64,000 nucleotides of DNA from a bacterium (GTDB lineage Bacteria > 4484-113 > JAFGCY01): positions 1 through 64,000 of the forward strand of contig JADZFO010000040.1 in NCBI GenBank assembly GCA_020849855.1, given 5' to 3'. The notes under the pieces are model-generated. The model was not told where the DNA came from. It worked only from the letters and a program-made list of their open reading frames with translations, and did no database searches. Below, one piece after another: positions 7,199-64,000 of the stretch. Within the stretch, counting starts at the first letter, position 1. Each line of letters begins with the position of its first letter. The translations under genes and the position numbers were made by a program.

Positions 7199-7320
7199 GC
7201 GAGACGCAGCTACAGGACCGGAGCGCAGAGAGCCTTTCCGAGCAGCAGCTGGAGAACCGGAGCGCAGAAAGCCTCTCCGAGCAGCCGCTGGAGAACCGGA
7301 GCGCAGACATCCATGTCTGC
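7190..7320 (-). repeat. Left REP array of the RAYT cassette: three 39-bp units plus hairpin
   Basis: The word CCGGAGCGCAGA recurs at 7218, 7257 and 7296, exactly 39 bases apart. The unit nearest the transposase ends in the hairpin GCAGACAT-CC-ATGTCTGC (7303-7320). 7190-7229 is a perfect inverted copy of 8056-8095 and includes the fusA stop codon. The order is the mirror image of the right array. Confidence 0.9.
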
Positions 7321-8003: not shown

Positions 8004-8215
8004 GCAGACATGGATGTCTGCGCTCCGGTCCTGTAGCTGCGTCTCGCTGAAGCTGTCTGCGCTCCGGTCCTGTAGCTGCGTCTCGCTTAGTGCGACCAGC
8101 TCTGCGTCTCGCGGGGTGCGCTGAAGACGAATGCAGACATAGATGTCTGCGCTCCGGTTCTGTAGTCGCGTCTCGCTGGAACTGTCTGCGCTCCGGTCCT
8201 GTAGTCGCGCTCTCG
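8004..8215 (+). repeat. Right REP array of the RAYT cassette: four 39-bp-type units, two hairpins
   Basis: TCTGCGCTCCGG occurs at 8017, 8056, 8146 and 8185. Spacing is 39, 90 and 39 bases, so the array is two 39-bp pairs. Each pair opens with a hairpin, GCAGACAT-GG-ATGTCTGC (8004-8021) and GCAGACAT-AG-ATGTCTGC (8133-8150). The array ends just before the stop of the PAP2 gene, so the cassette fills the gap between two convergent genes. Confidence 0.9.
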
Positions 8216-8218
8216 CCG

Positions 8219-32171: not shown

Positions 32172-34262
32172 TTGTTACAGTACGTCTGGCTGACTATCGC
32201 CTTCCCGCTGGTCGGGGCGCTGGTCAACGGCCTTTTTGGCCAGCGGATGAGCAAGAAGGCCTCCGGGACGCTGGGCAGCGCCATGGTCTTCCTCAGCTTC
32301 CTGACCGCCCTGGCGAGCTACTTCAGCTACAAGTCCTGGGCGGCGGGCTCTGACAGCCCCTACTTTGAGCTGACCCTGTGGCCCTGGATCCACGTCGGCC
32401 AGCTGCAGATCGACGCGGCCCTGCTGATCGACCCGCTCAGCACGACCATGATGCTGCTGATCACCGGGGTGGGCTTCCTGATCCACCTCTACAGCACGGG
32501 CTACATGAGCCACGACAAGGGCTACAGCCGCTTCTTTGTCTACCTGAACCTCTTCATCGCCATGATGCTCATCCTCGTGCTGGGCAACAACCTGGCGCTG
32601 ATGTTCGTCGGCTGGGAAGGCGTGGGCCTGTGCAGCTATCTGCTGATCGGCTTCTGGTATCAGGACATGTATAACGCCAAGTGCGGCATGAAGGCCTTCG
32701 TGGTCAACCGCATCGGCGACTTCGGTGTGCTCCTGGGCGCCTTCATCCTCTTCTGGAACTTCAACACCCTCAGCTTCACCGAGCTCTTTGGCAACTTCAG
32801 CTCGGTGATGAACAGCGCGACCATCGAGTCCTGGGTCCCGCTGGCCGCAGCGCTGCTGCTCTTCCTCGGGGCCACCGGCAAGAGCGCACAGCTCCCGCTG
32901 CATATCTGGCTGCCCGACGCCATGGCCGGCCCGACGCCGGTCTCGGCCCTCATCCACGCCGCCACCATGGTCACCGCCGGTGTATACATGGTCTGCCGCC
33001 TGAACCCGGTCTTCACCGCGGCGCCGACGGCGGGCTTCATCATCGCCTGTGTGGGCGCGGCCACGGCCTTCATTGCTGCAACCATCGCCCTGACCCAGAA
33101 CGACATCAAGAAGGTGCTGGCCTATTCCACGGTCAGCCAGCTGGGCTTCATGTTCCTGGCCTGCGGTGTCGGCGCCTACTGGGTGGCGATGTTCCATGTG
33201 CTGACCCACGCCTTCTTCAAGGCCTGCCTCTTCCTCGGCTCCGGTTCCGTGATCCATGCCATGCATGAGGAGCAGGACACCCGGGTGATGGGCGGCCTGG
33301 CGAAATACATGCCGCTGACCTACTGGACCTTCCTGATCAGCACCCTGGCCATCGCCGGCATCGTGCCGCTCTCAGGCTTCTTCAGCAAGGACGAGATCCT
33401 ATGGCGGGTCGCGACCTGGCAGACCCAGTTCGGCAGCGCGCCGATGATCCTCTGGTTTGTCGCGATCGCCACGGCCTTCATGACCGCGTTCTATATGGGC
33501 CGGGTTTTCTTCAAGACCTTCCTGGGCAAGCCGCGCTGGACCAAACATTATGTGGAGCACCATCACCACCCGCACGAGTCCCCGCGCAGCATGACCTTCC
33601 CGCTGGTGGTGCTGGCCACGCTGGCCGCCATCGGCGGCTTCATGGGCCTGCCGCACTTCACGCACGCGCCGAACTTCCTGGAGCCCTGGCTGGCCGCCAG
33701 CACCGGCGGCGAGGAGCAGCTGAACATCGTCGGCCGCATCGGCCTGGAAGAGCATGGCAGCGCAGCGCATGACGATCACGGCACTGCGGCGCATGACGAT
33801 CATGGCGCAGCAGCCGGGCATGCGGAGGACGCTGCCGCGCATCACGAGGCCTTTGTCAGCTTTGGCAGCACCGAGACCACGGAGATCATCTTCGCCCTGG
33901 TCAGTGTGGCCCTGGCGGCCTTCGCCCTGCTGGGCCTCGCCATGCCGCTTTACACGAAGCGCTTCGGGGCCACGGAGAAGCTGCACACAAGCCTCGGCCC
34001 GCTTTACCGGCTGAGCCTGAACAAGTGGTACATCGACGAGCTTTACCACTACCTGATCGTGATCCCTGGCACCGCCCTGGCCTATGGCTGCTGGCGCGTG
34101 TTCGACATGAAGTTCATCGACGGCATAGTCAACGGCGTTGGCAACGTTCTGGGGTGGCTGGGCCACGGCGTCCGCCCCTTCCAGACCGGCTTCGTCCGCA
34201 ACTATGCGATGTATCTGCTGCTGGGCGCAGTCGTCTATCTGGCGCTGAGCCTGCTGAAGTAG
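32172..34262 (+). CDS. nuoL: NADH-quinone oxidoreductase subunit L with His-rich insert
   Basis: This 696-residue antiporter-like proton-pumping subunit has the long lateral helix at its C-terminus. The conserved core includes FVGWEGVGLCSYLLIGFWY, PDAMAGPTPVSALIHAATMVTAG and AYSTVSQLGFMF. Between late helices a hydrophilic insert at about residues 526-560 carries tandem AAHDDHG repeats and about nine His. It uses a TTG start with GGAG upstream. Confidence 0.96.
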   Translation: MLQYVWLTIAFPLVGALVNGLFGQRMSKKASGTLGSAMVFLSFLTALASYFSYKSWAAGSDSPYFELTLWPWIHVGQLQIDAALLIDPLSTTMMLLITGVGFLIHLYSTGYMSHDKGYSRFFVYLNLFIAMMLILVLGNNLALMFVGWEGVGLCSYLLIGFWYQDMYNAKCGMKAFVVNRIGDFGVLLGAFILFWNFNTLSFTELFGNFSSVMNSATIESWVPLAAALLLFLGATGKSAQLPLHIWLPDAMAGPTPVSALIHAATMVTAGVYMVCRLNPVFTAAPTAGFIIACVGAATAFIAATIALTQNDIKKVLAYSTVSQLGFMFLACGVGAYWVAMFHVLTHAFFKACLFLGSGSVIHAMHEEQDTRVMGGLAKYMPLTYWTFLISTLAIAGIVPLSGFFSKDEILWRVATWQTQFGSAPMILWFVAIATAFMTAFYMGRVFFKTFLGKPRWTKHYVEHHHHPHESPRSMTFPLVVLATLAAIGGFMGLPHFTHAPNFLEPWLAASTGGEEQLNIVGRIGLEEHGSAAHDDHGTAAHDDHGAAAGHAEDAAAHHEAFVSFGSTETTEIIFALVSVALAAFALLGLAMPLYTKRFGATEKLHTSLGPLYRLSLNKWYIDELYHYLIVIPGTALAYGCWRVFDMKFIDGIVNGVGNVLGWLGHGVRPFQTGFVRNYAMYLLLGAVVYLALSLLK

Positions 34263-60969: not shown

Positions 60970-61413
60970 ATGAAACTCTGTCTCAGACAGCTTGCCCGCC
61001 TGCTTGCTCTGGTGCTCGCGCTCCAGGCGGGCATGCCGCGCGAACTGGTCTGGTGCTGCCAGAAGGACGGAGACATCGCCCTGGAGCTGGCCCACGGCGG
61101 ACGCTGCCTGGGCCTGGCCGGGCCGGGCTGCGGCGCGGATGAGCACCAGCACACTGACGAGGCGACGCCAACTGGTCCGCTCCTGGCCGCAGACCTCCAC
61201 GGTCCCTGCGAAGATATCGCCATCGTCCAGGCGGACAGCCGCCAGCAGCGCTGGGGCGGAAATGTCCTGGCCGCACCGCGCCTGCTGGAAGCCGCTGCCC
61301 TCAGCCTGCCGGCCCCGCTGCATTTGCCTACGCCGGCAGCTTCCTCACTTGAATGGCAGCATTGCCAGAAGCAGCGAAGTCTGCAACGGGCTTCCACAGT
61401 TCTGCGCATCTAG
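60970..61413 (+). CDS. Small secreted Cys/His-containing protein heading the metal-efflux operon
   Basis: This 147-residue protein has a signal-like start (QLARLLALVLALQAG) followed by VWCCQKDGDIALELAHGGRCLG and a DEHQHTD segment. The Cys and His pattern suggests metal or redox contact. Similar short proteins are, as far as I recall, found before RND metal-efflux genes, but I know no defined function. It precedes the TolC-like gene by 66 bases. Confidence 0.65.
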   Translation: MKLCLRQLARLLALVLALQAGMPRELVWCCQKDGDIALELAHGGRCLGLAGPGCGADEHQHTDEATPTGPLLAADLHGPCEDIAIVQADSRQQRWGGNVLAAPRLLEAAALSLPAPLHLPTPAASSLEWQHCQKQRSLQRASTVLRI

Positions 61414-61479: not shown

Positions 61480-63054
61480 ATGTCACCCTGTCTACGGGCC
61501 CTGTGTGGGCTCATCGCAGCCGCAGCTGTGCACCTGCTTTCGCTGGTGCCTGCCGGCGCTGATGCAGACGATAACGAAAACTATGTTGAGATACCGGCGG
61601 CGCAGCATGACGCTGGCGGAGTCGGTGGACTGGCCCAGCAGCTGCCTGATCCCAGCGCGGTCCCGGCCGAGCCCGAGGACGCCGCTGCTCCGTCGGCGGA
61701 CGAACTGGCCGGGCCGGATGCCGCCGCGCTGCTGGCCCTGGATTACAGCTTCGATGGTCCTGCGCTGTCGCTGGACGAGGCGGTCAGCCGCGTCCTGGAG
61801 GGCAACCCGGAGCTGGAAGCCCTGGAGTACGAACAGCGGGCCGCCTATGGGCGCAAGGTCCAGGCCGGCCTGCTGCCAAACCCGGAGTTCTCCGCCGAGC
61901 TCTCGGAGTTCATGGGCACCGCCGAGATGCGCTTCCTGCGCAGCGCGGTCAGCGGTGTGGGTATCTCGCAGCTCATCGAGCACAGCTGCAAGCGCATTGC
62001 CCGCTGCGATCTCGCCGAGCGCGAGGGCCAGCTGGCCCTGGCCGAGCTTGAGCGCAGGCGCCTGGACATTCTGCTGGAGGTCAGCGAGGCCTACTACGCG
62101 GCCCTGATTGCCCAGCAGCGGCTGGCCCTGGCGGCGAAGCTGGAAGGGCTGCTGACCCAGGTGCAGGAGGTAGTGGCGCTCAAGGTGGAAGGCGGCAAGG
62201 CGGCCCGCCTGGAGCTGACGCGCTCAGAGCTTGAGCTGCGCAACACTGCGCTGCAGCGCCAGCAGCGCGAGCGTGAGCTGGATGCCGCCATGCTGCGGCT
62301 CAGCTCGTTGTGGGGAGGGCAGGGCGGCGAGTTCAGCCATGTCGCCGGGGCCCTGCTGCTGCCCGAGGAGGTTCCGGCCTCAGAGCAGCTACAGGCCCTG
62401 CTGGACCAGAGCCCGGATGCCCTGCTTTGGGATGCCGAAAAGGAACTGCGCTCAGCCCGCCTGGCCCTGGCCAGCGCGGAAGCGCGCAAGGACTACACCA
62501 TCAGCGGCGGCCTGGCCCGCTATGAAGAGACCGACAGTTTCGGTTTCAGCCTTGGGATCAGCTTTCCGCTGAAGCGCCGCAACCGTAACGAAGGCGCCAT
62601 CCTGGAGGCCCAGGAATACCTCAACCAGGTCGAGAGCCTGCGCCAGGCCGACCTGCGGAGACAGTACCAGGCTCTGACAGAACAGTATGCCCGTCTGGCG
62701 AATGCCCATGAGCTGGCCCGCTCCATCGAGCAGGACATCCTGCCGGTGGCGCTGGAGAGCTTTGAGCTGACCCAGCTTGGCTACCGCTATGGCAAGTTCA
62801 CCCTGCTGGATGCCCTGGATGCCCAGCGTGTGCTGATCGAGGCCCAGGCCCAGCACCTGGAAGCCCTGGCGGAGTACCAGCTCGCCTCGGTGCAGATCGA
62901 GCGGCTGATTGCGTCTCCCCTGGGCGACGCGCTGCAGCCGCAGGCAACAACACAGAACGAAAGCGCCGGATCAGATGCGGAATTAGAGGCCTCGGCCGGC
63001 GCGGCCGAAGAAGAGCTTCAGACAACCATCACAACCACAGGAGAGTCATCATGA
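61480..63054 (+). CDS. TolC-family outer-membrane efflux channel (CusC/CzcC-like)
   Basis: This 524-residue protein has a signal peptide (LIAAAAVHLLSLVPAGADA) and two OEP repeats. LSLDEAVSRVLEGNPELEALEYEQRAAYGRKVQAGLLPNPEFSAELSEF opens the first, and FSLGISFPLKRRNRNEGAILEAQEYLNQVESLRQ opens the second. GYRYGKFTLLDALDAQRVLIEAQ is the classic outer-membrane factor C-terminus. It has GGAGG upstream and overlaps the next gene by ATGA. It would form the outer exit of an RND pump. Confidence 0.92.
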   Translation: MSPCLRALCGLIAAAAVHLLSLVPAGADADDNENYVEIPAAQHDAGGVGGLAQQLPDPSAVPAEPEDAAAPSADELAGPDAAALLALDYSFDGPALSLDEAVSRVLEGNPELEALEYEQRAAYGRKVQAGLLPNPEFSAELSEFMGTAEMRFLRSAVSGVGISQLIEHSCKRIARCDLAEREGQLALAELERRRLDILLEVSEAYYAALIAQQRLALAAKLEGLLTQVQEVVALKVEGGKAARLELTRSELELRNTALQRQQRERELDAAMLRLSSLWGGQGGEFSHVAGALLLPEEVPASEQLQALLDQSPDALLWDAEKELRSARLALASAEARKDYTISGGLARYEETDSFGFSLGISFPLKRRNRNEGAILEAQEYLNQVESLRQADLRRQYQALTEQYARLANAHELARSIEQDILPVALESFELTQLGYRYGKFTLLDALDAQRVLIEAQAQHLEALAEYQLASVQIERLIASPLGDALQPQATTQNESAGSDAELEASAGAAEEELQTTITTTGESS

Positions 63055-63506
63055 CCAGTGTTCTGCGCATCTTCCTTGTCTTCAGCGTCCTTTGCGGACT
63101 GCTTGTCTTCAGCGGCTGCTTCGAGCGCTTCACGCAAAAGAAGGCCACGGACAGCCACGCCGGCGAGACTGCCGAGGAGCATGCGGCTCACAGCGAGGAC
63201 GGCCACGAGGGCGAGACTGCTGAAGAGCACGCTGCCCACAGCGAGGATGGCCACGAGGGCGAGACTGCCGAGGAGCATGCGGCCCACAGCGAGGATGGCC
63301 ACGCCGGCGAAACTGCCGAGGAGCATGCCGCCCACAGCGAGGACGGCCACGAGGGCGAGACGGAAGAAGAGCATGCCTCCCACAGCGAGGACGAGCATCA
63401 GGAAGGCGAGGGGCATTCCCACGAAGGCGAAAGCGCCGAGGAGCATGCCGGGCACTCTGAGGAAGGCGGATCTGAAGCCGAGGGTGGGGAGGGCGCAGGC
63501 AAGTGA
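63051..63506 (+). CDS. Lipoprotein built of tandem 16-residue His/Glu repeats
   Basis: This 151-residue protein has a lipobox ending VFSGC (Cys 23). From residue 36 five near-identical 16-residue units with the core GETAEEHAAHSEDGH follow. After an 8-residue spacer a sixth unit (HEGESAEEHAGHSEEG) occurs, then a Gly/Glu tail. Each unit offers about three His and many carboxylates, so it should bind metal ions as a periplasmic buffer or chaperone. It overlaps the TolC gene and the adaptor gene. Confidence 0.85.
   Translation: MTSVLRIFLVFSVLCGLLVFSGCFERFTQKKATDSHAGETAEEHAAHSEDGHEGETAEEHAAHSEDGHEGETAEEHAAHSEDGHAGETAEEHAAHSEDGHEGETEEEHASHSEDEHQEGEGHSHEGESAEEHAGHSEEGGSEAEGGEGAGK
63156..63467 (+). 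repeat. Coding tandem repeat, 48-bp units
   Basis: Five 48-bp units, a 24-bp partial unit and one diverged 48-bp unit encode the His/Glu repeats of the lipoprotein. The DNA is more alike than codon choice alone would need, so recent expansion is likely. Confidence 0.85.
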
Positions 63507-64000
63507 TCCTGACACGACATGGCCTGGCGGCTTTGGCCGTCTACCTGCTGAGCGGCTGCCTGCTGTGTGCCTGCCCGGCCCGGGAAAAGGCTGCCACTGA
63601 TCCGCATGCGGGGGAAAGTGCTGAGGAGCATGCAGCGCACAGCGAAGGCGGCGCGGAACATGGCGAGGACAGCCACAGCGGTGAGAGCGCTGAAGAGCAT
63701 GCGGCGCATGCTGAACATGCCGAGCATGATGAGCACGGCGCCAGCGACGAGGAAGGCGGCCATGAAGGCCACGACCACGCGGAGCTGGTGAAGCTCAGCC
63801 CCGAGCAGCTGCGGCAGTATGGCGTCAAGATCGCCAGCGCCTCCGGCGGCAGGCTGGAGCAGTACCTGACCCTGCCGGGCGAGGCGGCGGTGAATGCCGA
63901 CACTGTCGGCCATGTGCTGCCCAAGCTGCCCGGCGTGGTTAAGAGCGTGCATGCCAATATCGGCGACCAGGTGCGCAAAGGCCAGCTGCTGGCCGTCATC
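63503..64000 (+). CDS. RND efflux periplasmic adaptor (CusB/CzcB-like), C-terminus beyond the window
   Basis: The 166 visible residues start at GTG 63503, which shares GTGA with the previous stop. A lipobox ends LLSGC (Cys 19). Residues 35-92 are His/Glu-rich, with two units of the same GESAEEHAAH repeat as the upstream lipoprotein. The fold proper starts at LVKLSPEQLRQYGVKIASA and continues TLPGEAAVNADTVGHVLPKLPGVVKSVHANIGDQVRKGQLLAVI, the barrel-sandwich biotinyl-lipoyl region of membrane-fusion proteins. The RND pump gene probably follows. Confidence 0.87.
   Translation, partial: MILTRHGLAALAVYLLSGCLLCACPAREKAATDPHAGESAEEHAAHSEGGAEHGEDSHSGESAEEHAAHAEHAEHDEHGASDEEGGHEGHDHAELVKLSPEQLRQYGVKIASASGGRLEQYLTLPGEAAVNADTVGHVLPKLPGVVKSVHANIGDQVRKGQLLAVI

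Follow-up and report, generated by a model that had tools for sequence, protein, structure and literature searches.

At the end of a 64,000-nucleotide stretch of bacterial DNA (the window) lies a heavy-metal efflux (HME-RND) operon of the czcCBA type that contains an additional gene, encoding a putative lipoprotein with six copies of a 16-residue His/Glu unit that is also found in the N-terminal tail of the neighboring adaptor. We consider it probable (roughly 0.6) that this gene descends from an ancient duplicate of part of the adaptor gene, namely, its 5′ end, and that its product serves as a disordered periplasmic buffer of divalent metal for the pump. The novelty lies in the extra lipoprotein gene in a czc operon; His/acid-rich adaptor tails are already widespread in CzcB-like proteins. 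The route of divalent metal from the periplasm to HME-RND pumps is unsettled, with CusF serving Cus and CzcI proposed for Czc-type systems, and a repeat common to a free lipoprotein and an adaptor tail would provide a natural test of metal concentration and hand-over by disordered His/acid tails, with a unit that is short enough for peptide synthesis.

Organization of the Operon and Likely Substrate of the Pump

The genes are arranged in the order small exported Cys/His protein, czcC, lipoprotein, czcB-like adaptor, czcA, and then a Csp3-type gene; the window ends within the adaptor, and the contig was read beyond this point for the adaptor end, CzcA, and the Csp3-type gene. The outer-membrane factor (OMF) CzcC (61480..63054, plus strand) matches Pfam OEP (E = 1e-32) and NCBIfam IhpA (E = 1e-45, below the IhpA cut-off). 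Its stop overlaps the start of the lipoprotein gene (63051..63506, plus strand) by 4 nt (ATGA), and the overlap of the lipoprotein and adaptor genes described in the initial annotation is likewise one of 4 nt (GTGA), such that, with a 4-nt overlap at each junction, the three genes look translationally coupled. The adaptor (63503..64000 and on to contig position 64876, plus strand, GTG start) is a predicted lipoprotein of 457 aa, and its earlier assignment as CusB/CzcB-like is borne out by its matches to HlyD_D23 (E = 5e-46) and to ZneB (3lnn, E = 2e-36), the best solved relative of this HME-RND adaptor. The CzcA pump (contig 64918-68184) scores 1511 bits against TIGR00914, for which the cut-off is 701. 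The components that define an HME-RND operon, namely, a CusA/CzcA-family pump, a barrel-sandwich adaptor, and an OMF, are therefore encoded together. In its OMF-adaptor-pump order, ZneA-like pump, and ZneB-like adaptor, the operon resembles CzcCBA/ZneCBA, from which it differs by the repeat lipoprotein gene between OMF and adaptor.

The gene ahead of czcC (60970..61413, plus strand) encodes a small exported protein of 147 aa that contains Cys and His, and gave no Pfam or NCBIfam match. In the sister genome G002, czcC likewise comes after a gene of comparable layout (L027 9261-9740, minus strand), also with no Pfam match, and this exported protein, present upstream of czcC in both genera, is a candidate second accessory protein of the pump. 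The gene just downstream of czcA (contig 68257-68733, L003 10258-10734) encodes a protein that resembles Csp3, a cytosolic copper storage protein and its closest solved relative (E = 9e-30); its length is 158 aa by the first start and probably 139 aa.

Among solved structures, CzcA is closest to ZneA (E = 2e-194), with CusA at E = 6e-176, and it shares DFGLIVDGAVIIVEN with ZneA (the DFG..DGA..EN segment). Residues H599, V649, and E700 align to the three Met residues of the periplasmic substrate site of CusA, and the three-Met site of the Cu(I)/Ag(I) CusA-like subgroup is absent from CzcA in this alignment. Based on the closeness to ZneA, the ZneA-like segment, the H/V/E residues at the CusA Met positions, and the ZneB-like adaptor, we favor a divalent-metal pump over one for Cu(I)/Ag(I), and the resemblance to ZneA would place it in the Zn/Co/Cd/Ni subgroup (CzcA, ZneA, CnrA). 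The metal is nevertheless uncertain due to the Csp3-type copper-store gene downstream, which is the one contrary hint.

The Lipoprotein and Its Repeat Units

The lipoprotein ORF has an ATG start with AGGAG ahead of it, and encodes 151 aa that begin with a signal peptide (R6, a hydrophobic core, and VFSG-C at residues 19-23, read by eye against the usual lipobox rule). Its signal peptide and lipobox Cys point to a bacterial lipoprotein, in which Cys23 (..LLVFSGC; 63117..63119, plus strand) is predicted by this rule to be lipidated. In E. coli, Phe after the lipid Cys sorts a lipoprotein to the outer membrane, which is where the present protein, with Phe at this position, would go if the rule holds in the host phylum. 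The mature chain of 129 aa contains 20 His, 43 Asp/Glu, 4 Lys/Arg, no Met, and no Cys other than that of the lipobox. AlphaFold2, run without an alignment, returned a signal helix and an otherwise unstructured chain at low confidence (about 50-54), as would be expected of a disordered chain, and the protein is thus predicted to be disordered outside the signal helix. Searches of Pfam, NCBIfam, and PDB sequences with the lipoprotein gave no CusF-like match and only weak matches below the cut-offs, of which those to the Pfam families PFF1_TM, OAD_gamma, and DUF4834 were set aside as compositional; a tblastn search of plasmids gave no match, and a description of such a repeat lipoprotein was not found in the literature.

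The array, which was picked up by both TRF and a repeat finder, consists of units of 48 nt (16 residues), all on the plus strand. Units L1 (HAGETAEEHAAHSEDG, 63156..63203), L2 (HEGETAEEHAAHSEDG, 63204..63251), L3 (HEGETAEEHAAHSEDG, 63252..63299), L4 (HAGETAEEHAAHSEDG, 63300..63347), and L5 (HEGETEEEHASHSEDE, a variant, 63348..63395) are contiguous, and L6 (HEGESAEEHAGHSEEG, 63420..63467) follows an 8-residue spacer, HQEGEGHS. The count of six H-x-G-E-[TS]-A-E-E-H-A-A-H-S-E units originally proposed for the lipoprotein is therefore correct, with the qualification that units 5 (HEGETEEEHASHSE) and 6 (HEGESAEEHAGHSE) are variants of this core; the broader pattern HxGE[TS]xEEHAxHSE covers all six. 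In the adaptor tail, the "at least two" units of the same proposal can be refined to exactly two, A1 (HAGESAEEHAAHSEGG, 63605..63652) and A2 (HSGESAEEHAAHAEHA, 63674..63721), also on the plus strand. The His residues of each unit are at fixed spacing (H1, H9, and H12). The adaptor tail has no Met, and no Cys besides its N-terminal lipobox Cys, and with lipoprotein and tail both of this composition, hard or borderline divalent ions would be a better fit than Cu(I)/Ag(I).

In a pattern search for EEHAAHSE across 289 genomes, all eight exact or one-mismatch sites of the host genome fell within the lipoprotein and adaptor genes, and those matches in other genomes that were read showed no such repeat in any ORF. 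A second genomic match to the array DNA (G000:C50, 78% over 58 nt) proved to be a GC-rich chance match within a SurA/PPIase-like gene. Further tandem repeats occur elsewhere in the window, at 7206-7307, 8015-8216, and 33756-33814 (periods of 39, about 40, and 24, respectively).

Relationship between the Two Repeats

The best 14-residue match between the lipoprotein and the adaptor tail has 13 identical residues, compared to a mean of 7.8 and a maximum of 11 for the best match in 2000 shuffles of the adaptor tail, and to at most 10 of 14 for the tail of any other homologous adaptor in the comparison. We used this identity test instead of a BLOSUM local score against shuffled tails, which was dominated by composition and uninformative. 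The identical positions include ones that are not metal-binding (G, T/S, A, A), and the comparison as a whole supports a relationship between the two repeats beyond composition. By eye, the linker before the first unit agrees as well (KKATDS-HAGE versus KAATDP-HAGE, with KARTADSH in the sister adaptor), suggesting that the homologous stretch extends a few residues beyond the repeat, into the linker.

At the DNA level, no similarity between the lipoprotein and adaptor units is left beyond that imposed by the protein, which rules out a recent, but not an old, duplication. Specifically, 56 of 136 aligned codons are identical, where 65 are expected from the shared amino acids given the codon usage of the long ORFs of the window (using the two genes' own usage gave the same result), and with codon identity at or below chance, the DNA carries no direct trace of copying. 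The 145 nucleotide differences include 100 at third codon positions, which marks the plus frame as the coding frame; an antisense ORF at 63018-63515 was rejected as a mirror of the repeats, the differences tracking the plus-strand codon frame. Silent sites have thus been randomized while the protein unit was kept, which argues for purifying selection on the protein, and a recent duplication between adaptor and lipoprotein is excluded. Units A1 and A2 of the adaptor (5 of 12 codons identical) are as diverged from one another as are the lipoprotein-adaptor pairs. Within the lipoprotein, 132 of 183 codons are identical between units, compared to 88 expected, a value as high as this being reached in none of 1000 simulations, and the lipoprotein units have therefore been recently duplicated or homogenized.

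Distribution among Related Operons

The collection holds ten genomes of the host phylum, and the lipoprotein was found in none of the nine others, in which the one match (in G003) falls in the adaptor tail; it is known from one genome only. Among close relatives, the operon is complete only in the sister genus genome G002, which does not have the lipoprotein: its CzcC and adaptor genes share 8 nt, without a gene in between, and its adaptor tail carries a different 16-residue repeat (DEHDDHDHAAHAEPAA) with H-A-A-H-A-E in common. In G003, the operon is split over two contigs, and the OMF ORF continues into that of the adaptor, whose tail likewise repeats with a period of 16 residues. With regard to other genes at these loci, G002 encodes a P-II-like protein (Pfam P-II, E = 2e-19) directly after CzcA (L027 2871-3269, minus strand), and a similar PII-like ORF lies between adaptor and CzcA in L117 (5692-6033); the PII-like gene is absent from the present operon.

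A wider survey covered 385 genomes, and 40 further loci were read and pooled with the named loci to give 52 adaptors, including the present one; the surveyed phyla centered on G042 and G059 are tiny. The OMF lies directly upstream of the adaptor and abuts it, with nothing between, in 37 other operons, and among the operons examined only the present one has an insert at this position (448 nt). A His-rich adaptor tail is found in at least 23 of the 52 adaptors; the count was strict and left out several, the present adaptor among them, as the tail boundary was lost in a few loci. As His/acid-rich tails are common among relatives, and have a 16-residue period in the sister genus, the adaptor tail appears to be the widespread, older part, and the separate lipoprotein, which was seen in none of the homologous operons compared, a local novelty. 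That the sister genus has the adaptor tail without the lipoprotein favors the direction from adaptor to lipoprotein.

The initial annotation had proposed that the lipoprotein arose by duplication and expansion of the adaptor tail, and had named unrelated codons in the two repeats, together with absence of the lipoprotein from related operons, as what would refute it. Both were in fact observed, yet this combination cannot separate an old duplication from none. What stands of the proposal is the relatedness of the repeats, the expansion in the lipoprotein, and the favored direction; a recent copy is not supported, codon identity not being above expectation. The membrane-tethered metal sponge feeding the pump, which was also suggested there, would be a plausible role.

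Origin and Role of the Lipoprotein

In the reading that we prefer, the 5′ end of the adaptor gene, comprising signal peptide, lipobox, linker, and His/Glu tail, would have been duplicated long ago directly upstream of the adaptor; the folded adaptor core would then have disappeared from the duplicate, in which the 16-residue unit would have been amplified to six copies, with the protein sequence kept by selection. The product would be a membrane-anchored, disordered, polyanionic chain that may weakly bind several divalent ions (of the Zn2+, Co2+, Ni2+, Cd2+, or Cu2+ class) in the periplasm. By analogy with other pump accessories, the bound metal could raise the local concentration beside the pump, and could be transferred to the adaptor tail, whose unit is almost identical, and then to CzcA. 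Counting against duplication, a disordered chain rich in His and Glu readily arises from composition, and the unit spans just 14-16 residues.

Alternatively, the lipoprotein could be a His-rich metal buffer of independent origin, which came to have the unit in common with the adaptor by convergence, or because both genes drew on a third, unseen source. Such an origin would account for the lack of excess codon identity between the two genes, and both His/acid-rich tails and unrelated stand-alone His-rich lipoproteins do occur near other HME pumps (L037 and L038). We nevertheless consider it unlikely, as identity at 13 of 14 positions, including non-metal ones, was never reached by shuffles or other adaptors, the genes adjoin and their linkers agree, and the unit has no further copy in the host genome. 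Very little probability attaches to the lipoprotein having come about by recent slippage in the adaptor tail and being functionless by itself: the saturated synonymous sites, the excess of third-position differences (100/145), and the nearly unchanged protein unit speak of long purifying selection, and the ribosome site and signal peptide are intact, with start and stop coupled, even though the homogenized units L1-L5 do reflect a recent tandem expansion and the protein is present in one genome only.

A different function is also conceivable, with the repeat acting as a metal-independent spacer or as a periplasmic pH- or cation-responsive linker, and the protein as a pump assembly factor and not a metal buffer. 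The predicted disorder and the strongly acidic character (43 acidic versus 4 basic residues) would fit this role; however, the 129 residues include 20 His with a fixed spacing, which, in a metal-pump operon, makes metal binding the simpler reading, and other pump adaptors retain His while nearly all else changes, leading us to regard this role as improbable.

Comparison with Other Pump Accessories

CusF, the Cu(I)/Ag(I) chaperone of CusCBA, is small, folded, and soluble, and binds metal via Met, His, and Trp. The present lipoprotein is likewise a small, presumably periplasmic and metal-binding accessory encoded with an HME pump, but unlike CusF, it is predicted to be lipidated and disordered, and is repetitive and without Met. 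CusF hands Cu(I) via the adaptor CusB to CusA (PMC8277102), and CzcI has been proposed to bring zinc to CzcB (PMC10393844). CzcI and CzcE of Czc systems are likewise accessory periplasmic proteins, and we know of no report of CzcI or CzcE being built from an adaptor tail repeat. The His/Asp/Glu-rich N-terminal tails of CzcB-like adaptors resemble the present repeat in their position after the signal peptide or lipobox, their His/acid composition, and, in the sister genus, their 16-residue period; the difference is that here the tail copy is a separate protein with more units.

Two planctomycete loci encode lipoproteins that are comparable in being short and next to a CzcA gene. That of L038 (4497-4877, 126 aa) directly follows CzcA, and its cassette WCxEHGxPExxC aligns with adaptor tails from other genomes (47% over 45 aa, E = 3e-13). 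That of L037 (5366-6013) is a stand-alone HDH-repeat lipoprotein, located upstream of an adaptor whose tail is poor in His. Both differ from the present lipoprotein in metal motif (CxxHG..C..C and HDH, respectively) and gene position, and have no sequence in common with the His/Glu unit. These precedents suggest that tail-like lipoproteins arose more than once, with different ligands. It is possible, though we advance this only tentatively, that stand-alone adaptor-tail lipoproteins are a class of HME-pump accessory that recurs and has no name, the metal-binding N-terminal tail of the adaptor having become a separate, lipid-anchored protein in different lineages (with the His/Glu unit here, the Cys/His cassette in L038, and the HDH repeats in L037). 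If true, such a class would constitute an independently dosed periplasmic metal buffer that is matched to the adaptor's own docking tail. We note, finally, that the adaptor tail of a locus from another phylum (L107 4902-6239) is an 8-residue repeat, HAGEAPDA, with half the period of the repeat studied here and again with H-x-G-E.
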